A DNA stretch of 64,000 nucleotides. Origin: Pyrodictiaceae archaeon (lineage in GTDB: Archaea > Thermoproteota > Thermoprotei_A > Sulfolobales > Pyrodictiaceae). The DNA is taken from contig JALVSY010000007.1 in the NCBI GenBank assembly GCA_027036135.1, positions 562,880 through 626,879 on the forward strand. Direction: 5' to 3'. A program made the position numbers and the translations under genes. The stretch's first letter is position 1; each line of letters starts with the position of its first letter. The notes beneath the pieces are model-generated. The model searched no databases. It saw only the letters and a list, made by a program, of their open reading frames with translations, and was not told the origin of the DNA. Of this stretch, positions 17,019-52,489 are shown in pieces.

Positions 17019-18242
17019 CTATGTTTGTGCTGTTTGTCTCTCTTTGTTTGCTTGTGGCGGGGTTGGTGCAGGGGGTGTTGGTTGTGGTGTGTAGGGCGGG
17101 TATTGTGGGTATGGTGGTGGGTACGAGGGGTATTGTGTCTGTGGTTGTTGTGTTGTTTGTGGATATTGTGGTGGTGCTTGGTGTATTGGCTGGGTGTTTT
17201 GCTGGGGGGTTGGCTGTATTGGTTGCTGTGCTGGGTACGGGTTGTAGGTTGGTGCTGGGTAGGGGTATAGTGGCGGGGTTGGCGCAGGGTACATGGGGTA
17301 CTGTGGCTGCTGCGCGGGGGCTGCGAAGGCTCTCTGGTAGGCGGTTCTTATGTCCTCGTCTAGTAGGTGGAGGTAGATCTGTGTTACTTTGATGTCGTGG
17401 TGGCCTAGTAGGCGCTGGACTGCTGGTAGAGGGATGCCGCGTCTCAATGCCTCGGTTGCGAAGGTGTGTCTTAGTACGTGTGGTCTTACTTTTCGTGGGT
17501 CTATTCCTGCTCTCTTGGCTAGTGTCTTGAGGCGCTTGTAGAGCGCGCTGTAGCTTATCCCAAGCAGGTTGTCGTCTGGGCCTAGGCCGGGGTTCCTTGC
17601 TAGCCATGCCTCGAGGGCTTGCTGGGTAAGTGCTCCGTAGTAAACGGTTCTCTCCTCGCCGTACTTCGCGTTCCTTACCCTTATCTCGCGCCTGGCCGGG
17701 TCTATGTCTCGTAGCCGTAGCGAGACCGCCTCCTGTGCTCGTAGCCCCGTCTCGAACAATAGGGCAACTATTAGGAGGTCTAGGGGGTCCCTTGCAGCTG
17801 CTACTAGGCGCTCTACCTCCTCTGGGCGAAGAGCCTCCACTCTCGTGTTTCTGGGCTTCTTTACAACGGGTACCCGGACTCCTAGGCCTAGCCACTCGAA
17901 GAACCCGCGGAGGAATAGTGTGTAGTAGTGCATTGTTACTTGTCGCTCCCTCCTCTCCTCGAAGAAGTCCCTCTTCTTCGTCCTCGGTCTCTTTACCCCG
18001 TTGCTCAGCCTGTCATATATCCACGCGGCGACGTCGCTGTCGCTAACCTCTCTCAGAGGCTTACCGCCTATATAGGAGAGGAAATCAGTTATGGCTGCAC
18101 GGTAAGCCTTAATCGTCTTAGGGCTAGCGCCCCCAGCTGCTAGCGCGGCTAGGAATGCCTCAAGGATCTCACTGTTGCTCCTCTTCAGGATATCCCGTGG
18201 AGGCGGTGGTAGCTCGAAGCGAACCAATGCACCTACTCCCAA
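17019..18242 (-). CDS. xerA: XerA-type tyrosine recombinase with Pro/Gln/Tyr-rich C-terminal tail
   Basis: Site-specific tyrosine recombinase: N-terminal SAM-like core-binding domain (about 20-130) and catalytic domain with Arg in ETGLRAQEA, H-x-x-R in RPHVLRHTFA, His in LLGHHDIKVT and nucleophile Tyr in TQIYLHLL. Archaeal XerA is normally about 290 residues and resolves chromosome dimers at dif. Here residues 308-407 (17019-17321) add a tail made almost only of Pro, Gln, Tyr, Thr and Ala with P-x-Y and Y-P repeats, giving a strongly G/T-rich plus strand. The annotated TTG may be too early: TATAAT-like sequence at 18245-18252 would put transcription start near 18222. Role could also be mobile-element integration. 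Confidence 0.85.
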   Translation of the reverse strand: MGVGALVRFELPPPPRDILKRSNSEILEAFLAALAAGGASPKTIKAYRAAITDFLSYIGGKPLREVSDSDVAAWIYDRLSNGVKRPRTKKRDFFEERRERQVTMHYYTLFLRGFFEWLGLGVRVPVVKKPRNTRVEALRPEEVERLVAAARDPLDLLIVALLFETGLRAQEAVSLRLRDIDPARREIRVRNAKYGEERTVYYGALTQQALEAWLARNPGLGPDDNLLGISYSALYKRLKTLAKRAGIDPRKVRPHVLRHTFATEALRRGIPLPAVQRLLGHHDIKVTQIYLHLLDEDIRTAYQRAFAAPAQQPQYPMYPAPTPPLYPYPAPTYNPYPAQQPIQPTPQQNTQPIHQAPPQYPQTTQQPQTQYPSYPPPYPQYPPYTPQPTPPAPTPPQANKERQTAQT

Positions 18243-41812: not shown

Positions 41813-42217
41813 TTATCTAATCCACAGTCTTTTTACTTCTCTTATTTTATCGAATTCTTTATCCTCGGTCGCTATTAGCTCTATATTATTGTTGAGCATT
41901 ACAGCCACGTGGAGAGCATCAGACGGCTTAATACCGTAATCAGATATGAGCTTAGCTGCTTCTCTATATTCTTCTTCGCCAAGGCTAAGAACCAATACAT
42001 AGGGGAGTACATTAGCTTCTATGAATTTTATAGAGACGTTGTATGGTACATGGTATTTTCTTTTAGAGACAAAGATGGTCTCATCAAGCATTAATGCATC
42101 TGTGTAGAGTTCATGATTATCTATTAAGTCAAAATAGAACCTTTCGTATATAGATCTGGTTGAACTAGTTATTGTATTAAGATATATGAAGAGCGTAGCA
42201 TCTATAAATATTTTCAA
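41813..42217 (-). CDS. vapC: VapC-type PIN toxin
   Basis: 134 residues, apparently intact: MKIFIDATLFIYLN (first Asp), DALMLDETIFVSKRKY (Glu), GIKPSDALHVAVMLNN (Asp) and LIATEDKEFDKI (last Asp). It overlaps the upstream AbrB-type antitoxin by 4 bp. More AT-rich than the neighbours, which fits an accessory gene. Confidence 0.85.
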   Translation of the reverse strand: MKIFIDATLFIYLNTITSSTRSIYERFYFDLIDNHELYTDALMLDETIFVSKRKYHVPYNVSIKFIEANVLPYVLVLSLGEEEYREAAKLISDYGIKPSDALHVAVMLNNNIELIATEDKEFDKIREVKRLWIR

Positions 42218-42525
42218 TCCTCGAACTCCTCTTCGAGATAAACCTCTGCAAGCTCACCGGGTTTTGGCTCCCTTCTACCCTGTATCTTCTTAAGTCTTTC
42301 AACATGCTCTCTCATGGACTCCTTATGCCTTTCTATATCGGGTTTAGGTGATTTTCTCACAGGCCTAAGTACTATTTCTCCGTCATTCCTTACCTCAACG
42401 ACGAGTTCGTCTCCTTCATTAAGGCCGAGCTGTTCACGTATCGCTTTTGGCAACGATATGTATCCTTCATTTCTTTCATTCTTAACTCTTAGCCTCGTCT
42501 GTCGTGTCCTCAGTCGAAGAGCCAA
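42214..42525 (-). CDS. AbrB-family antitoxin
   Basis: 103 residues. NEGYISLPKAIREQLGLNEG followed by DELVVEVRNDGEIVLRPV is the swapped-hairpin AbrB DNA-binding fold. The charged C-terminus likely wraps the PIN toxin that follows with a 4-bp overlap. TTG 42525 has GGAGGGGG about 8 nt upstream and a TATA box near 42541-42548. Confidence 0.85.
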   Translation of the reverse strand: MALRLRTRQTRLRVKNERNEGYISLPKAIREQLGLNEGDELVVEVRNDGEIVLRPVRKSPKPDIERHKESMREHVERLKKIQGRREPKPGELAEVYLEEEFED

Positions 42526-45224: not shown

Positions 45225-46145
45225 CTACTGGGGCTTGTCGGGTACTACGGGGTTTATGAGGCAGCCTATGCCCTCGACGCAGACCTCCACTATGTCGCCG
45301 GGGCGTAGAAAGCGTGGCGGGTTACGGGCAAAGCCCACTCCAGGAGGCGTGCCCGTGGAGACTATGTCTCCGGGTTCTAGGAATGTGCCACGACTAGCAT
45401 AGGATACCAGGGCCTTCACGTCATGTATCATGTCGCTGGTGCTCCCCCTTTGCAACTCCTCACCGGAAATCCTCAGCGTCAATGTTAGGCCCTTCCAGGG
45501 GTTAAGCAGGGTCCTAGGAACAATGACGGGGCCTATGGGCGCGTAGGTGTCCCTGCTCTTCCCCCTCCACCACTGAGAAGCACCCGCCATGTGCTGCTCG
45601 TAGCGCGCCGAGACATCGTTGAAGCAAGTATAGCCCCAGATATTCTCCACGGCTTCCTCTAGGCTTAGGCTCCTACCAGGGAGCCCGATAACAGCGGCGA
45701 GCTCGGCCTCAGCGTCAACACGTAGCTCAGGGTCGTGGAGCACGATGGGGTCCCCGGGGCCGACAACAGCGTTAACGGTCTTGACAAAGAGATCCGGCAC
45801 CCGTGGCGGCTCCCTGCCCGTCTCGGCAGCGTGGGCGCGGTAGTTCAGCCCAACAGCAATGACCTTCGAGGGCTTCTCGACCGGTGCCAGGAACCTCACA
45901 CCACCCAATGGGAGCCCCTTGTCACTAGCACTAACCATCCTAGCAAGATGCTCCACATCCTCCGGGGGATACTCGAGCATAACCTCCCTTACATCACTAT
46001 AGCCCCAAGCCCCAAGTGGGTAAACCCTGCCACGATAAACAAGCGCAGGCTCAGCACCACCACCAGGAGCAGCTATACGGGCAAGTCCAACCAAGCCCCA
46101 AACCTCATAACCAAGCAACAACCTAAGATCCCTAAGCGATGCCAC
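45225..46145 (-). CDS. Fumarylacetoacetate hydrolase-family protein
   Basis: 306 residues. FAH-domain signs: VIAVGLNYRAHAAETG, VDAEAELAAVIG (metal-binding E-x-E), TCFNDVSARYEQ, RGKSRDTYAPIGPVIV and IVSTGTPPGVG. Members split C-C bonds, decarboxylate or isomerise 2-oxo acids; the exact substrate is not evident. It stands alone. Confidence 0.85.
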   Translation of the reverse strand: MASLRDLRLLLGYEVWGLVGLARIAAPGGGAEPALVYRGRVYPLGAWGYSDVREVMLEYPPEDVEHLARMVSASDKGLPLGGVRFLAPVEKPSKVIAVGLNYRAHAAETGREPPRVPDLFVKTVNAVVGPGDPIVLHDPELRVDAEAELAAVIGLPGRSLSLEEAVENIWGYTCFNDVSARYEQHMAGASQWWRGKSRDTYAPIGPVIVPRTLLNPWKGLTLTLRISGEELQRGSTSDMIHDVKALVSYASRGTFLEPGDIVSTGTPPGVGFARNPPRFLRPGDIVEVCVEGIGCLINPVVPDKPQ

Positions 46146-46199
46146 GCCCCATCACAGCCCTCTCACAAGCCCAAGAGCAAGAGGGGGGAATAGTAATAC

Positions 46200-46424
46200 G
46201 TGGAAATAGCATTCGACAAAGACACAGCACCACTACCAGAGCCTTTCCGCACCCCGCCCGCTACAAGGAGAACTATAGAAGATATGTCTGGTCGACCATG
46301 CGCAGACTTTACTACAAGAATCAAGGCCCCATGGCCGGGACAAAAGCGAGACAAAAGAGACGATGACCTAGGGCAGCAAGGTACGCAGTTACTGGCTAGG
46401 CTCTTCTTCAGTGCAAGAGGCTAA
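46200..46424 (+). CDS. Doubtful small open frame
   Basis: GTG 46200 opens a 74-codon frame, rich in Arg, Pro and Asp (RTIEDMSGRPCADFTTRIKA). It is divergent from the FAH gene and no family is recognised. It fills an otherwise empty 260-bp gap, but may be chance. Confidence 0.25.
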   Translation: MEIAFDKDTAPLPEPFRTPPATRRTIEDMSGRPCADFTTRIKAPWPGQKRDKRDDDLGQQGTQLLARLFFSARG

Positions 46425-46632
46425 AAAGGAAATACACGGTTATAGCGATGTTATATACCAAGAGGAATACGGAGAGATATCTCAGCTGCTGCCCAAGAAG
46501 CTCACGTAACGGCTTATACCTCTTGCCGAGCCTTTGGAGAAGCTGCCTCCTCATATCTAGCACTTTCTCCTTCATATCACCGCCGAGAATGCACTCAATC
46601 AATACGTTATCAATCCTCTCTCGTACTTCCAT
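46408..46632 (-). CDS. Small C-terminally anchored protein
   Basis: 74 residues from ATG 46632: charged helical part (MEVRERIDNVLIECILGGDM, KEKVLDMRRQLLQRLGKRYK) and a C-terminal hydrophobic helix (YLSVFLLVYNIAITVYFLFS). The frame extends to 46704, but a TATA box (CTATAAATGG on the minus strand, near 46707-46716) would place transcription start inside that extension. It resembles tail-anchored proteins. Function unknown. Confidence 0.5.
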   Translation of the reverse strand: MEVRERIDNVLIECILGGDMKEKVLDMRRQLLQRLGKRYKPLRELLGQQLRYLSVFLLVYNIAITVYFLFSLLH

Positions 46633-46834
46633 CCTCCTAACACGGAGATATAGAACTAACCAGTTATGAAATAATATAAACCGCTTACATATATCAATTA
46701 CCATTTATAGCGCCCAAGCACTATAAACTAGCTTTATTACAGAACTTTAGGAAAGCTGATTAATCAAGAGAATAACCCTGTATGCGAAGATTCCAAAAAT
46801 CTCGTTTCGCTTCACGTATCAATGCCCTAGTGTA

Positions 46835-46906
46835 TAGCCTATGTCAGGATAGGGCGCCGGCCTTCGGAGCCGGAGGTCCCGGGTTCAAATCCCGGCGGCT
46901 CCGCCA
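46835..46906 (+). tRNA. tRNA-Arg(TCG) lacking the 5' acceptor strand
   Basis: D stem GCCT/GGGC (46837-46840, 46852-46855), anticodon stem CCGGC/GCCGG with loop CTTCGGA (anticodon TCG at 46864-46866), T arm CCGGG-TTCAAAT-CCCGG, acceptor 3' strand CGGCTCC, discriminator G and encoded CCA (46904-46906) are all there. The expected 5' strand GGAGCCG is absent; the seven bases at 46828-46834 are TAGTGTA and do not pair, and no GGAGCCG lies in the preceding 130 bp. This is a partial tRNA: an attachment-site copy, a degraded gene, or the 3' part of a split tRNA. Confidence 0.7.
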
Positions 46907-47028
46907 CATATAAACCCCTATATAAGTCTTTCCCTTCTTCCAAGGCAAGGCTGTGGCTTCTAGTTCAGATAAGAACCAGGATGGTTCTAGCTTCATCAAT
47001 GATAATCTCAGCGGATAATCTTGACTGA

Positions 47029-47481
47029 CTAGGGCGCAACTTTTAGCCAGGGAACTCTCTTAAAGTCTTCATCGAAGGTTATGACGGTGTCTATGTTATT
47101 GCGTTTACATGTCAGGGCTATGATTGCATCGCTTGGCAGGAGTTTTATTTGCCTAGCGGTCTCTATCATGTCTTGGTATTCCACGTTTTCTACTAGGACT
47201 TCTACCTCAAGGTCTTCCAGTAACTTCCTTATACCATTGGCTATGAATTTTGGGTATCCCTTGTTCGCTATTAGTTTTCTTAGGCTGTATGGTCCTTTGA
47301 GTTCTTCCGTGGCCTGGTAATATTTCCTTGTGGATATGTAGAGTAGTTCGTTTACCACTGTTAGACTGGTGTAGAACTTGTTTTCCTCGTAATCCTCTAG
47401 CAGCTTCCGGGCTTTGCGTGTGAGGTTTGTCTCGAATAATATATTGTAGAATATATTAGTGTCTATAAAGACTTTGTTCAC
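47029..47481 (-). CDS. PIN-domain toxin paired with DUF104-like antitoxin
   Basis: 150 residues, intact PIN domain: KVFIDTNIFYNILFE (Asp), SLTVVNELLYISTRKY (Glu), KLLPSDAIIALTCKRN (Asp) and DTVITFDEDFKRVPWL (Asp). GTG start overlaps the antitoxin stop by 4 bp. A frameshifted relative is at 49888-50335. Confidence 0.85.
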   Translation of the reverse strand: MNKVFIDTNIFYNILFETNLTRKARKLLEDYEENKFYTSLTVVNELLYISTRKYYQATEELKGPYSLRKLIANKGYPKFIANGIRKLLEDLEVEVLVENVEYQDMIETARQIKLLPSDAIIALTCKRNNIDTVITFDEDFKRVPWLKVAP

Positions 47482-47678
47482 TGTGCTTGAGCCTCCTCTT
47501 CATATTCCCTGAGCTCCTCTACAGAGGCCTTACCGAATAATCCAACATATTTGTCGAGCACTTCGCTCACTCTGCGCTTGCGTATGAAGACTACTAGCTC
47601 CTCTCCCTCGTGAAGTTCCACTGGCTCCAAAGGCTTCAGCACGCCTCTTTCATATCTAACCCGTATAACCTTAGACAC
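47478..47678 (-). CDS. DUF104/AF2212-like antitoxin
   Basis: 66 residues: SKVIRVRYERGVLKPLEPVE followed by LHEGEELVVFI is the beta-rich AF2212-like DNA-binding fold, and the acidic tail EELREYEEEAQAQ would bind the PIN toxin. It is closely similar to 49694-49891, showing the two modules are related. A 22-bp palindrome sits 7 bp upstream. Confidence 0.82.
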   Translation of the reverse strand: MSKVIRVRYERGVLKPLEPVELHEGEELVVFIRKRRVSEVLDKYVGLFGKASVEELREYEEEAQAQ

Positions 47679-47684
47679 TTCCTA

Positions 47685-47706
47685 GCCCCAAGCATATGCT
47701 TAGGGC
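47685..47706. promoter_or_regulatory. 22-bp near-perfect palindrome upstream of the antitoxin
   Basis: AAGCATATGCTT is perfect and is extended by GCCC/GGGC with one mismatched pair. It lies 7 bp before the antitoxin start and includes TATA-like CATATG, so it may be the autoregulatory operator. Confidence 0.55.
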
Positions 47707-47878
47707 ATCGAGGCAATTAGCCTTTCCTGTAAGCTGAGTGCTTCCAGATTATCATCATAGGTATCATGTATGATTATCATTATTGAAACATGTTTTCAGT
47801 TCATGGTTTCTATCGGAAACGTTGTTTTTATATTACTGGCTCCACTAAATACCTCAACAGAACAATGTCATACTAGTG

Positions 47879-48250
47879 TTAAGGATCTTTGACTAATGAT
47901 TTAAGTTCTTCGATAAAGGCGTCTACCGAGGGATCGGGGAGTGGTACTACTTTATCGCGCTCGTGCTTATGATGCGGAAAGGTCTCGATATAAGGGTGAT
48001 GGGGTGCATTGTCGTATCTAAGGACGAGTTTTTCGCCGTGCAGCAGCGTGTATGAGTATTTAGCAATAAAGCCTCTAAGAATGAGCTCAGATATAAATAC
48101 CTTAAAATCGTGTTTTACTGCCCACAACCTATAGTAGCCGTCCATGCTCGTGGAACCAGGCTTATATGCTGCGGGAGTGATACTCTGGAATCCCAGGGCC
48201 CGTAGCTTGCTAGTAACATAAGTCACTCCATCGGCGAGTTTAACTCGCAT
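47879..48250 (-). CDS. TumE-type toxin (DUF6516)
   Basis: 123 residues. The stretch YDNAPHHPYIETFPHHKH followed by ERDKVVPLPDPSVDAFIEEL is typical of the TumE family, which pairs with TumA antitoxins. The upstream gene fits TumA and is 12 bp away, so the module looks intact. Mode of action is not established from sequence. Confidence 0.78.
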   Translation of the reverse strand: MRVKLADGVTYVTSKLRALGFQSITPAAYKPGSTSMDGYYRLWAVKHDFKVFISELILRGFIAKYSYTLLHGEKLVLRYDNAPHHPYIETFPHHKHERDKVVPLPDPSVDAFIEELKSLVKDP

Positions 48251-48262
48251 GTTTGCGCCCTT

Positions 48263-48511
48263 TTAGACGTGTTTAAGCTTCTTCTCGAGCTCCTTCTCAA
48301 CGTTGTTTAACTCCTCTACGAGTCCATACCATATCATAAAATCTCCATGGGTCTCCGGGTCCAGAGGTTCAGGGAGTAGCCCCTTGCTCCACTTTTCATA
48401 GAAGTCTTTACTGTTAATGCCATACTTTCTCTCAAATTTCTTAATCTCCTTTATGAGCCATCTTCTCCTTAAGACAAGCTTCTCAACAGCACTTATTGTA
48501 GTAGATTCCAC
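48263..48511 (-). CDS. TumA-like antitoxin
   Basis: 82 residues, strongly helical and charged; RRRWLIKEIKKFERKYGI and FYEKWSKGLLPEPLDPETHG followed by DFMIWYGLVEEL match the small helical partner seen beside TumE toxins. The 200-bp gap on the other side of the toxin (47707-47878) holds only AT-rich sequence. Confidence 0.7.
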   Translation of the reverse strand: MESTTISAVEKLVLRRRWLIKEIKKFERKYGINSKDFYEKWSKGLLPEPLDPETHGDFMIWYGLVEELNNVEKELEKKLKHV

Positions 48512-49021
48512 TGTTGATCCCCTTGTAGTAGATGTGGCCCGTAGAATCTTAAATACATCAATTTCGTTATATTGTCTAGGACAATCCGTGACAATCTATG
48601 CAAGCCTCTAGAAAATTCACGGCATCCTATCTGAGGTGCGGCTTGTCAGTCACGGCTAGCTCTCGTCTCGGAGTAGGGATGATGTAGGAGACCCAGTTAG
48701 TATGCAGCTATTTATATCATTCTATGAGGGTGGTTCTTAGACCCGGTTCTTGCCGCCATATTTCTTTTGTGAGATTCTTGTTCTTGTGGAGCTGGTAGGT
48801 AGCTCCTCCTTCTCTACTAGGCTCGTGGCTGGCTGTTTCTATGTCCCCAACCAGGCTCTACTATCCCGAGGAACTCATCCAAGCCCAGATAGACCCATAG
48901 CCCTAATCATGCCCAAAGTACCGCAGCCCTAATCCTTGCCGTAAGCCCTTAATGCCTCTTTAGGAGCAAGCCCAGAGGCTTAATAGTTATGTAGATACGT
49001 GTATACGTAGGTAGGTATGCC
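48512..49021. other. 510-bp gap, no gene recognised
   Basis: Holds promoters for the divergent TA modules. TACGTGTATACGTA (48996-49009) is a nearly symmetric TATA-containing site just before the vapB start at 49022. I see no intact gene or clear RNA; short frames here have no recognisable family. Confidence 0.4.
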
Positions 49022-49315
49022 GTGAGGAAAAGGAGGGTGACTCTGAGCATTGAGGAGGTTCTCAGGGAGGCTAAGCTAGTGGCCGGTCTCGAGGGTAGAA
49101 GTCTCAGCAGCCTTGTTGAGGAGTATCTGGAGAGCCTAGTGGCGTCGCGGTGGCTAGAAAGGCTTGCTGCCAGTATAGGTGTAGAGAGGCTAGAGCCAAC
49201 CTCCGAGGATGAAATCCCGAGTCAGCGGCCAGGGGGTTTTGACGCTGCCCAAGCTGTTAGAGAGGTTAGGAGGTCCCGTGAGGAGAGGATAACCCATGGC
49301 CTCGGCGGGCAGTGA
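49022..49315 (+). CDS. VapB-like antitoxin, toxin split
   Basis: 97 residues: KRRVTLSIEEVLREAKLVAG followed by LEGRSLSSLVEEYLESLVAS is a ribbon-helix-helix pattern, then an acidic middle and basic end. Start GTG 49022. It overlaps the N-terminal half of a broken VapC gene by 20 bp. Confidence 0.72.
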   Translation: MRKRRVTLSIEEVLREAKLVAGLEGRSLSSLVEEYLESLVASRWLERLAASIGVERLEPTSEDEIPSQRPGGFDAAQAVREVRRSREERITHGLGGQ

Positions 49316-49600
49316 ATGCTACTACCTGGATACCAGCGCCCTTGTGAAACGCTACGTTAAGGAGCCGGGTAGTGAGGTAGTCGACAAGATTTATGCCAAA
49401 GCCTACAGGGGGATAGCAGTTATAGCTATCTCCTACTGGAACATAGCAGAGGCGGCTGTGGTCTTCCGACAAGTATGAGAAAAGGTTGAGACTTAGTGCG
49501 AGGCGCTTGTTGGAAGCCCTCCCACATGAGTCACGCACCCTTGTAGAACTACTGGGCTGAAGCCATAGTACAGAAGCATTCTTCAGCAGTGATGATCATT
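49296..49600 (+). pseudogene. VapC N-terminal half, frameshifted
   Basis: ATG 49296 opens a PIN start: CYYLDTSALVKRYVKEPGSE (Asp) and ISYWNIAEAAVVF (Glu), stopping at TGA near 49476. The next frame continues KYEKRLRLSARRLLEALPHE then SRTLVELLG (to 49558). After that, AAGCAT-N7-CAGTGATGAT (49574-49596) resembles the DNA for the PIN third motif region found intact at 50416-50439. The C-terminal catalytic part is lost here. Confidence 0.7.
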
Positions 49601-49693
49601 TAGGATGACATCTATGGAGATAATCTAGGGACATGTGTGGAAACGAAGAGCTAATTGCCCCAATGCACCTAATGTATAAAGCGGGAGCTAGGG

Positions 49694-49891
49694 TTGTCTA
49701 AGGTTATACGTGTGAGGTACGGGAAGGGCGTGCTGAAGCCGTTGAGTAGCGTAGACCTTGAGGAGGGCAAGGAGTACAGAGTCATAGTGGGAGAGGATAT
49801 AGATGAGCTAATTAAGAAGTACAGGGGAGTTCTCGGGAAATCCTCTGTCAAGGAGTTCCGGGAGCTTGAGGAGGAGGCCCAGACTCAATGA
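49694..49891 (+). CDS. DUF104/AF2212-like antitoxin, second copy
   Basis: 65 residues: SKVIRVRYGKGVLKPLSSVD followed by LEEGKEYRVIVGEDIDELIK, and an acidic end (FRELEEEAQTQ). It is clearly paralogous to 47478-47678. Start TTG 49694; TATA-like GTATAAAG near 49674-49681. It overlaps the toxin start by 4 bp, but the toxin is frameshifted. Confidence 0.8.
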   Translation: MSKVIRVRYGKGVLKPLSSVDLEEGKEYRVIVGEDIDELIKKYRGVLGKSSVKEFRELEEEAQTQ

Positions 49892-50335
49892 TATGCCTCG
49901 ACACAAACATAGTCTATCACTTCCTCTCCGAGACAGAGCTAACTAGCGTCTCAGAGAAGGTTATCAGGGAAGCAATCATAGAAGGCCTAGCTATCCCCAT
50001 GATAGTATACAACGAGCTACTCTACACTACAGGCGCGAAGATTGCCCGGATAAAGTATGGCGTTAAGGGAAAATACTCATTCCGGGAGGCGTATAGCCAA
50101 ATATGGATTCCCTAAAGAAGCCATAGAGAAGGTTAACAGTTTCATCAAGGACTTCAAAATAACCATACTAAGGGATCACCAGGACCCAGACGAACTCGTT
50201 GAGGCAATCAAGGCTTATAGACTAGCGCCAAACGATGCCCAAATAGCCTTAACCTGCAAGCATAGAGACATAGGAAAGCTAGCAACATTCGACAAGGACT
50301 TCAAGCAAGTTCCATGGCTCAACCTAATTCCGTAA
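49888..50335 (+). pseudogene. PIN toxin of second DUF104-like module, frameshifted
   Basis: Frame one gives ICLDTNIVYHFLSETELTSV, IVYNELLYTTGAKIARIKYG and stops at 50115. The rest is in the next frame from about 50085: RRIAKYGFPKEAIEKVNSFI, AYRLAPNDAQIALTCKHRD and LATFDKDFKQVPWLNLIP. Aligned with the intact relative at 47029-47481, one frameshift near TTCCGGGAGG separates the halves. Confidence 0.78.
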
Positions 50336-50364
50336 CTCTTGAGAGATTATCAACTAGGGTGATC

Positions 50365-50583
50365 TAGTATCAATATTCCTTAATCCTGATCCACGAGACC
50401 ACCGAGCCCGTGCTAAAGCATCATATATACAGTGATGATGCTCTACAAATAGCCTCAGCACGTCATACGAATTGTAAGCACTTAGTTACAGCCAATAAGA
50501 AGCTCGCTAAAGTGACGGCTGTCGAAAACCAGCGGTCATCACGGCGGGAGACGAAGCAATATAGGGCCGGAGTAGTCCAGTAG
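50365..50583 (+). pseudogene. VapC C-terminal fragment
   Basis: One frame reads LILIHETTEPVLKHHIYSDD then ALQIASARHTNCKHLVTANK and KLAKVTAVE. This is the C-terminal third of a PIN toxin, with D-D-A-L-Q-I-A-S and the final catalytic position (TANKK where D is usual). No N-terminal half precedes it directly; a fitting one lies at 49296-49600 across the DUF104-like/PIN cassette. Confidence 0.7.
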
Positions 50584-50984
50584 TTAGACATAATCATCCC
50601 TAAGTAGTCTCGTCGAGTAGTCACTCCGAGCCTTAGTCTCTTGGCTTGGAGGCAAGCTTCACGGTCGTCGATTAGAAGCAGGCTGGCATTAATCTCTAGA
50701 GCTAGTACCATTACCTCTGCTCTGCCCTCGTCCAGCATAAATTGGAGAATTCTCTTCAAGCGTTCATCCTTTATTCCTACTACCTTGATCCAAGAGGCTT
50801 CCCTTACCTCTCTTGAGCCTGGCCGTCCCCGTCCCTCCACTACGACCTCGCGATACACCGCAGGAGGGATTAGGAGCTCGCCGAAGAACTCTCTTAGTAG
50901 GCTGAGGCGCCCTATCTGTGAGAGGCGTATCAAGGGACTAGAGTTAGACACTACTGTCCTGCTCTTCCGCGAAGGCGATGTCAT
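50463..50984 (-). CDS. DUF3368 PIN-type toxin with altered C-terminus
   Basis: 173 residues. The first 130 match DUF3368 PIN proteins: VVSNSSPLIRLSQIGRLSLL, IPPAVYREVVVEGRGRPG, LDEGRAEVMVLALEINASLL and LIDDREACLQAKRLRLGV. From about residue 132 the family pattern is lost, and the tail is the antisense of the VapC fragment on the plus strand. A recombination near 50590 probably replaced the normal end. Activity uncertain. Paired with the UPF0175 gene upstream. Confidence 0.7.
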   Translation of the reverse strand: MTSPSRKSRTVVSNSSPLIRLSQIGRLSLLREFFGELLIPPAVYREVVVEGRGRPGSREVREASWIKVVGIKDERLKRILQFMLDEGRAEVMVLALEINASLLLIDDREACLQAKRLRLGVTTRRDYLGMIMSNYWTTPALYCFVSRRDDRWFSTAVTLASFLLAVTKCLQFV

Positions 50985-51225
50985 CCTCCAGCTCCTCCCT
51001 TGTATAATGTCTCTCGATACCCCTCTTGGCTAGCTCCTCTAGGAACTCCCACTTGGATAGCCCAGCAAGGCGACGGGCCTGACCAAGACTAAGTACTCCC
51101 CGAGCATAGAGAGCTATCGCTAGCTCTATCCTGGCAACCCTCTCGAACTCCTCTTCTGGGACACGAGCACCCTCAACAATATCCCTTGGGACGCGTATCA
51201 CAACAAACTTGCTCTTTGATGACAC
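50944..51225 (-). CDS. UPF0175-family antitoxin
   Basis: 93 residues: VVIRVPRDIVEGARVPEEEF followed by ARIELAIALYARGVLSLGQA and RRLAGLSKWEFLEELAKRGI is the UPF0175 pattern, a helix-turn-helix protein commonly encoded with DUF3368 toxins. It overlaps the toxin gene by 41 bp. Confidence 0.85.
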   Translation of the reverse strand: MSSKSKFVVIRVPRDIVEGARVPEEEFERVARIELAIALYARGVLSLGQARRLAGLSKWEFLEELAKRGIERHYTREELEDDIAFAEEQDSSV

Positions 51226-51586
51226 CCGGATACCCTATTTGCTAGAACAATCATAATGAATTATAAGTCTTTAAGGAATCAGTATCTTCTAACAGCGTGC
51301 CGAAGAACGCTGCCTAGGCAAGCTGAGGACGGAATATCATCCCTTAAAAGCTCATGTATTTAGCAATGCCGCATTATACTATACCGTAAAGACGTGGAGA
51401 TACGGGGAGACTAGCGAGCTTTAGCATACTCAATAGCAGGCATTAGATAATCAGACTCATCACTATGTTTCGGTCCGTATCCTACCCTAAAGCGTCTGCT
51501 TCTAAGTCTAGGGTCTTCGGGCTGAATGGAGCTTATGGGTCTTCAAGACCCCTTACGCATTTTCTTAATACCTGGCCCTCATTATT
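51226..51586. other. Gap without recognisable gene
   Basis: About 360 bp of AT-rich sequence between the UPF0175 antitoxin and a PIN remnant. TATA-like elements near 51255-51270 fit the antitoxin promoter. I see no reading frame with family features, repeat or RNA structure I can support. Confidence 0.4.
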
Positions 51587-51715
51587 CTAACGTTTACTAA
51601 TCAGTATCGCTACATGCTTGGTTGTTGCTATGCAGTATGCGTCGTCTGCTCTACAGCCAGTAAGCAAGGCTACCTCTGCCGCCTTATCGTGGACGAGTTC
51701 CTCGTCTATATACAT
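51587..51715 (-). pseudogene. PIN-domain C-terminal remnant
   Basis: ATG 51715 to TAG 51587-51589 encodes 42 residues: DKAAEVALLTGCRADDAYCI and ATTKHVAILISKR. The D-D-A-Y-x-I-A-T pattern and the following I-L-I-S are the end of a PIN toxin, and a final N-D is replaced by a stop. The N-terminal part is missing. Confidence 0.55.
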
Positions 51716-51748
51716 TGATGTGCCTAAGCACTATTTTTAGCAGTATAT

Positions 51749-52489
51749 CTAGATTGTTAGTATTGATAAATCGTTTGGCACTATTATTCCCCGCCCTTGT
51801 GTCTTTTTTGCCTCGTTTATGCTCTGTATTGTTAGGTGTACTAGGGCTAGTAGCGCGTCCCTCCTCATATGCGTCTTGTAGCTTGTTGCCTGGGTGACTG
51901 TTTGGTGCCCTGTCCCTCTCGCTACTTCCTCCATCCCGGTGGGCATTGTGGCCTCTGTTATCATTAGATCTATCTCTCTGGCTAGTTCCTGATAGGCAGT
52001 GGTTAGCCTCGTGTCTGATGTGTAGAGGAGTCTTGCCCCGTTTTTCTCCTCTACTATGGCTCCGTAGCAGGGAATGCTGTGGCTAGATGTGGTTATCCTG
52101 AGCACTGTGTCTCCGAGTCTTAGTTCTTCGTGGAGCCTGGCGGCTATGATGCTTATTCTTGGCTGGGCGCTGCGTGGCATCAGTCGTAGTGCTATGTCTT
52201 TCGCGCTCTCTACTAGGGGCTCTGGGATCACTATGCCTGGGGGATTGGTGTTCTCTGCGGCTGCGTAGACTGTTAGCTCGAATAGCCCCGACCAGTGATC
52301 GAGGTGAAGATGGGACAGGTAGACATAGTCTATGTCGTGGACGCTGTAGCCTGCCTCGTAGAGGCGCTGGCCGCACCCTGGCCCACAGTCTAGCAAGACC
52401 CTGGTATCGCTGGTCTCGATGAGTATGCTGTTCTCTGCCCTGCCCGGAGGCGCGCCAGCACCCCCTGTGCCGAGGAACACGATGCGCAA
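51749..52489 (-). CDS. Metallo-beta-lactamase-fold hydrolase, RNase Z-like
   Basis: 246 residues: MRIVFLGTGGAGAPPGRAEN start, LSHLHLDHWSGLFEL (H-x-H-x-D-H), SSHSIPCYG, LLYTSDTRLT (bridging Asp) and a final His in LLALVHLT. The layout is that of RNase Z/arylsulfatase-like MBL proteins, but the long exosite arm of tRNase Z is not visible, so the substrate is open. Located at the right edge of the TA island. Confidence 0.82.
   Translation of the reverse strand: MRIVFLGTGGAGAPPGRAENSILIETSDTRVLLDCGPGCGQRLYEAGYSVHDIDYVYLSHLHLDHWSGLFELTVYAAAENTNPPGIVIPEPLVESAKDIALRLMPRSAQPRISIIAARLHEELRLGDTVLRITTSSHSIPCYGAIVEEKNGARLLYTSDTRLTTAYQELAREIDLMITEATMPTGMEEVARGTGHQTVTQATSYKTHMRRDALLALVHLTIQSINEAKKTQGRGIIVPNDLSILTI

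Follow-up and report, generated by a model that had tools for sequence, protein, structure and literature searches.

The truncated tRNA copy and its toxin-antitoxin island

A copy of tRNA-Arg(TCG) that runs from tRNA position 8 to the CCA end and lacks its 5' acceptor strand occupies positions 46835-46906(+) of the window, the whole 64-kb stretch of DNA analyzed here (C7:562880-626879 of genome G000; 2.2 Mb, 40 contigs, 99.6% complete). This 72-nt copy was not called as a tRNA by ARAGORN, and it is the sole RNA family match that Rfam gives across the window (RF00005, 46835-46895(+), 37.4 bits with a cut-off of 29 bits, model positions 8-63 of 71); an att-half HMM matched it as well (E = 4.5e-15). 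The sequence-only reading of this DNA had described all arms and the CCA as intact, which holds, within the stretch from the anticodon arm to the CCA (46857-46906), for the anticodon stem-loop CCGGC-CTTCGGA-GCCGG with anticodon TCG, the T arm and the genomic CCA (46904-46906). The D loop, however, reads TATGTCAGG instead of the TAG-CCAGG of complete relatives, and the 3' acceptor reads CGGCTCCG as opposed to CGGGCCCG in the complete tRNA-Arg(TCG) genes examined, so that the copy is drifted in both parts. Likewise, the 5' acceptor strand, said to be a GGAGCCG replaced by TAGTGTA, is indeed absent, but GGAGCCG had been derived from the mutated 3' strand of the copy and fits no complete relative, and the pattern applied to GTDB contigs yielded no tRNA-Arg(TCG) whose acceptor reads CGGCTCC. 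TAGTGTA may either replace the acceptor strand or be an insertion before a remnant of it; 88 of 1000 shuffles aligned as well as the supposed remnant did.

The suggestion that the copy is the 3' piece of a trans-spliced tRNA-Arg(TCG) could draw on its start near a stem junction, but a complete tRNA-Arg(TCG) gene is present in the same genome (C7:348892-348966(-)), directly adjoining argS as in G007 and G017 (argS identified by eye from the translation), and the acceptor and D loop of the copy have drifted away from relatives. Within the window, 18 matches to GGAGCCG were counted (12.8 expected), none of which is placed to pair as an orphan 5' piece. Since the complete gene exists elsewhere in the genome, the split-tRNA reading was rejected and keeps practically no probability. 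Further 3' parts of tRNA-Arg(TCG) were located in the genome at C7:346576-346622, a half copy 2.3 kb from the intact tRNA with vapBC in between, at C7:1118296-1118356, directly followed by vapBC as is the window copy, and at C30:268974-269018 and C30:269991-270047, a pair that encloses vapBC. The vapC of this enclosed cassette (C30:268974-270047) carries a stop, so part of the family is decaying.

The window copy opens a cassette of about 1 kb that consists, in order, of the tRNA-Arg 3' part, a left end with GATAATC repeats, vapC, vapB and a conserved arm of about 105 nt (ARM), the copy itself forming an attL-like left boundary. The left end (46907-47028(+)) carries CATATAAACCCCTATATAAGTCTTTCC, followed by GATAATC at 47001-47007 and 47014-47020, and relatives as well as an integrase-encoding element show the same ends behind tRNA-Arg. 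An alternative assignment of this sequence as old chromosomal flank was rejected, as it is the cassette's own left end. The vapC toxin gene, an open frame of 150 aa with a PIN domain (47029-47481(-); PF01850, 3.2e-18), has its stop at 47029, bearing out the earlier statement that the toxin-antitoxin (TA) island starts right after the copy, and it is accompanied by an AF2212-like vapB antitoxin gene of 66 aa (47478-47678(-); PF01954, 8.8e-23). The type-1 ARM (47742-47841(+)) reads TTCCAGATTATC...GATTATCATT...GTTTTCA..ATGGTTTC....GGAAAC....TTTTATA and was matched by R1, a sequence-only model of the type-1 ARM whose seed included this very copy (81 bits, E = 1.4e-22), and by nhmmer (1.2e-21). At the expected place of the right tRNA-Arg half (47842-47870(+)), assigned by position only, no more than TGGCTCCACTAAATACC is left, unrecognisable by itself, and the att-half HMM gave no match after the window ARM, the right half being too decayed to detect.

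The island (46146-51748) is missing from the complete genome of the same genus, G007, in which homologues of its flanking genes, FAH (45225-46145) and MBL (51749-52489), are 88 nt apart; the difference could stem from an insertion in the window lineage or from a deletion in G007. The island holds a second, inverted and decayed cassette (about 49555-50351) with a decayed ARM (49555-49631(-); R1 E = 6.6e-5, nhmmer 2.8e-5), vapB (49694-49891(+); PF01954, 9.3e-20), a vapC broken into two overlapping open reading frames (49888-50335(+)) and a left-end GATAATC at 50345-50351(-). The other TA genes of the island (a TumE-like gene, DUF6364 with a short PIN-like frame, and UPF0175 with a possible PIN) have no recognisable att. 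Outside the island, a further PIN-type toxin gene with an AbrB-like partner, recognized by eye, lies at 41813-42525(-) of the window and is likewise unmatched in the G007 region.

Over 987 nt, the window cassette (46845-47830) shares 92% identity with a cassette in an Acidilobaceae MAG, where a complete tRNA-Arg(TCG) serves as the first att. This match spans the tRNA part, the left end and vapBC as well as most of the arm, and such near-identity in another family argues for arrival by transfer, of at least the window cassette. The last ~90 nt of the match, within the ARM, are less alike than the remainder, and cassettes may therefore also recombine internally.

A family of cassettes at tRNA-Arg parts

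The ARM consensus from aligned loci of the window's genome is TTCCAGATTATC...GATAATCATT..TGAA...GTTTCCA.TT.ATGGTTTC...TGGAAAC....TTTATA..TC, followed by a tRNA half starting at GGCCTTCGG. Outside its seed, R1 matched copies in the same family and in MAGs named Acidilobaceae and Desulfurococcales, and altogether it placed the ARM in 55 of 214 genomes of the order (27 genera). The anatomy of the cassettes is repeated from locus to locus: a tRNA-Arg 3' half stands within 40 nt after 63 of 87 ARMs (39 genomes), in 67 of 68 cases vapB precedes the ARM by 55-84 nt, vapC mostly ends 118-159 nt after the preceding tRNA half, and the cassette period is mostly 940-1040 nt. The displaced half copies examined start at the anticodon loop. 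GATAATC was found in 32 of 50 left ends (1.4 expected) and in 60 of 87 ARMs (3.0 expected), and this enrichment on both sides of the core looks like what would be seen for the arm-type sites of a lambda-like integrase.

The cargo is mostly vapBC, antisense to the tRNA and probably with a promoter of its own, and other units between tRNA-Arg parts hold HEPN/MNT, HicAB, PemK, TumE or DUF5615/DUF433 genes. In addition, a 6.5-kb unit on contig C325 of G010, flanked by an intact tRNA-Arg(TCG) on one side and by a half copy that has a type-1 arm on the other, carries a GmrSD-like restriction gene and not vapBC. No matches to the patterns searched were obtained in viral contigs, and no published description of the cassette family as such was found in a literature search that reached few subscription journals.

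Cassettes stand singly or as tandem arrays, often behind an intact tRNA-Arg(TCG); ARAGORN placed an intact tRNA-Arg, mostly TCG, at the array head in 11 of the 20 array regions that were inspected. Each of the 44 cassette VapC proteins had its closest relative (up to 97% identity) in another genome and never in the same array, within which VapC identity had a median of 36% (range 32-44%), and neither the ARMs nor the att halves were more alike within arrays than between genomes. Array neighbours are of independent ancestry. In the lack of closer similarity among att copies within arrays, the cassettes differ from archaeal integrons, the attC sites of which were reported to be more alike within arrays (PMC9668308).

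Proposed mobilization in trans and alternative explanations

No integrase gene was detected inside the cassettes, as no PF16795 match lies near any cassette listed for the window's genome, and among the 17 good-quality array-bearing genomes five (G034, G127, G074, G170, and G043) have no PF16795 match, so that their arrays may be immobile or served by another enzyme. Integrase-encoding elements with similar ends do occur at tRNA-Arg. A PF16795 integrase element at tRNA-Arg in G056 has the same left end as the cassettes, and another at tRNA-Arg(TCG) in G015 has a left end with GTTTCAG...CTGAAAC and GATAATC, which makes its integrase a candidate for the type-1 enzyme. None of the integrase-encoding elements found ends on the right in a complete type-1 arm. 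Elements at tRNA-Arg(CCG) in G056 and G132 carry GTCCCA...TGGGACA at the left end, a repeat that also precedes half copies in some of the TA units. At loci L199, L235, L242, L241, L174, and L206, the tRNA-Arg halves are preceded by a second class of arm (TGTCCCA...TGGGACA), which matches the repeats of these integrase elements. The only PF00589 match of the window's genome is XerA-like (window 17019-18242(-)). With 407 aa, this recombinase is longer than archaeal XerA usually is, and its C-terminal tail is long and Pro/Gln-rich.

We consider it likely that the truncated tRNA is the attL-like, tRNA-side junction of a non-autonomous TA cassette belonging to a family that is moved in trans by a tyrosine integrase. 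The suggestion of the sequence-only reading that a tRNA-targeting element had left an att remnant is supported and can be extended, as the copy forms the attL-like end of a TA cassette; yet the copy reaches position 8, and displaced halves start at the anticodon loop, so it is not a displaced half but the tRNA-side junction with its 5' end lost. We infer movement, a circular form and the enzyme, with mobilization in trans as the most likely route, from the repeated anatomy, the tandem arrays behind intact tRNA-Arg, the independent ancestry of neighbours, the near-identical cassettes in different families, the empty site of the island and the similar ends of integrase-encoding elements. A circular DNA of about 1 kb would carry one TA operon and an attP core matching the tRNA-Arg 3' half, with arm sites to its left and right. 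At the anticodon loop, a tyrosine integrase provided in trans would recombine this core either with tRNA-Arg(TCG) or with the half copy that ends an existing cassette. One side would thereby regain a full tRNA while the other kept a half copy that could receive a further cassette, and arrays would grow as each cassette inserts at the half copy of its predecessor. In the window, the anchor tRNA has lost its 5' end and the right half has decayed, and the copy is for these reasons probably a fossil that is no longer mobile. The presence of a truncated tRNA with its cassette at a non-tRNA locus is not accounted for by simple integration.

Each TA pair could instead be all that remains of a larger virus or plasmid, decayed since its integration in tRNA-Arg, with the TA genes kept because their loss kills the cell. 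Integrase-encoding elements do use tRNA-Arg, and TA genes are able to stabilise integrated elements (PMC2654960); independent decay, however, should not leave dozens of loci with identical order, orientation and gaps and a common ~1-kb period, nor would nearly identical ~1-kb cassettes be expected in different families, and we regard such an origin as unlikely. That the arrays were built without site-specific integration, through tandem duplication by homologous recombination between tRNA-Arg halves, is very unlikely: the halves do form direct repeats of about 50 nt, but the unrelated neighbours, with their low VapC identities and nearest relatives always outside the array, contradict this as the main cause, and ARMs and halves are likewise no more alike within arrays. 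Homologous recombination may still delete or rearrange cassettes. A tRNA pseudogene that came to lie beside TA genes by chance might well be drifted and truncated like the window copy, but chance would hardly produce one 987-nt match to another family that runs from the tRNA part through vapBC into the arm, or repeat the association in dozens of loci, and this explanation is extremely unlikely.

Among known systems, the cassettes come close to archaeal tyrosine-integrase elements of the SSV and pNOB8 types (PMC8371274), which also use a tRNA 3' part as att core, rebuild the tRNA and displace a half copy, the integrase of SSV1 being reported to cleave the anticodon loop at its borders. A half copy at the far end was found for 63 of 87 arms, though it is unrecognisable in the window itself, and an empty site in a relative was found for the whole window island (G007). 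In contrast to these elements, the cassettes have no integrase gene inside, measure only about 1 kb, carry almost exclusively TA or defence cargo and form tandem arrays in one tRNA gene. With integrons, including archaeal ones (PMC9668308), they share the lining up of single-operon cassettes in rows, with a recombination site at the end of each cassette, the independent ancestry of neighbours, as in the arrays described above, and frequent TA cargo; they differ in that the site is a tRNA-Arg half and not a known attC, the platform is a tRNA gene and not attI, vapBC is antisense to the tRNA, and no IntI was seen by an array in the PF00589 search of the window's genome. The cis-mobilizable elements and ICE/IME accretions of bacteria (PMC5704250) likewise consist of non-autonomous segments between att sites that pile up in tandem at one site, but the cassettes are far smaller and have a uniform period, TA cargo, an archaeal tRNA-Arg as site and many host families. 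In its workings the family resembles a non-autonomous integrative element and, where cassettes form arrays, an integron, but where tested it lacks the enzyme that defines each of the two. The pdif modules of Acinetobacter plasmids are likewise small, carry TA or resistance genes and are bounded by sites of a recombinase encoded elsewhere, these being Xer dif sites on plasmids as opposed to tRNA halves on chromosomes.

With even chances, we further propose an archaeal analogue of the integron, in which tRNA-Arg(TCG) would be the capture platform and tRNA halves the cassette sites, and in which TA and defence cassettes would be gathered, rearranged and disseminated through the order by the integrases of resident viruses or plasmids. 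Units of about 1 kb that each bring along a tRNA-derived site, pass from family to family and stack up behind a single tRNA gene would offer hyperthermophilic archaea a concrete route to gain so many TA pairs, and would amount to an integron-like gene-collecting system built from ordinary integrase sites.

Elements in other tRNA genes of the genome

An 8.3-kb integrase-encoding element in tRNA-Asp(GTC) (C30:228364-236668) has GTTGCA repeats at both ends, a layout that it shares with the cassettes. A primase-like gene was recognized inside it by eye. Contig C28 has at its end a tRNA-Glu(CTC) half, with the same GTTGCA-type arm in front of it, and contig C2 starts with tRNA-Ser(GGA) and an integrase. 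Finally, a 35-kb element in tRNA-Asn(GTT) (C7:886317-921716) has the intact tRNA at one end and a half copy at the other, with a Phage_integr_3 integrase directly before the tRNA-Asn half.
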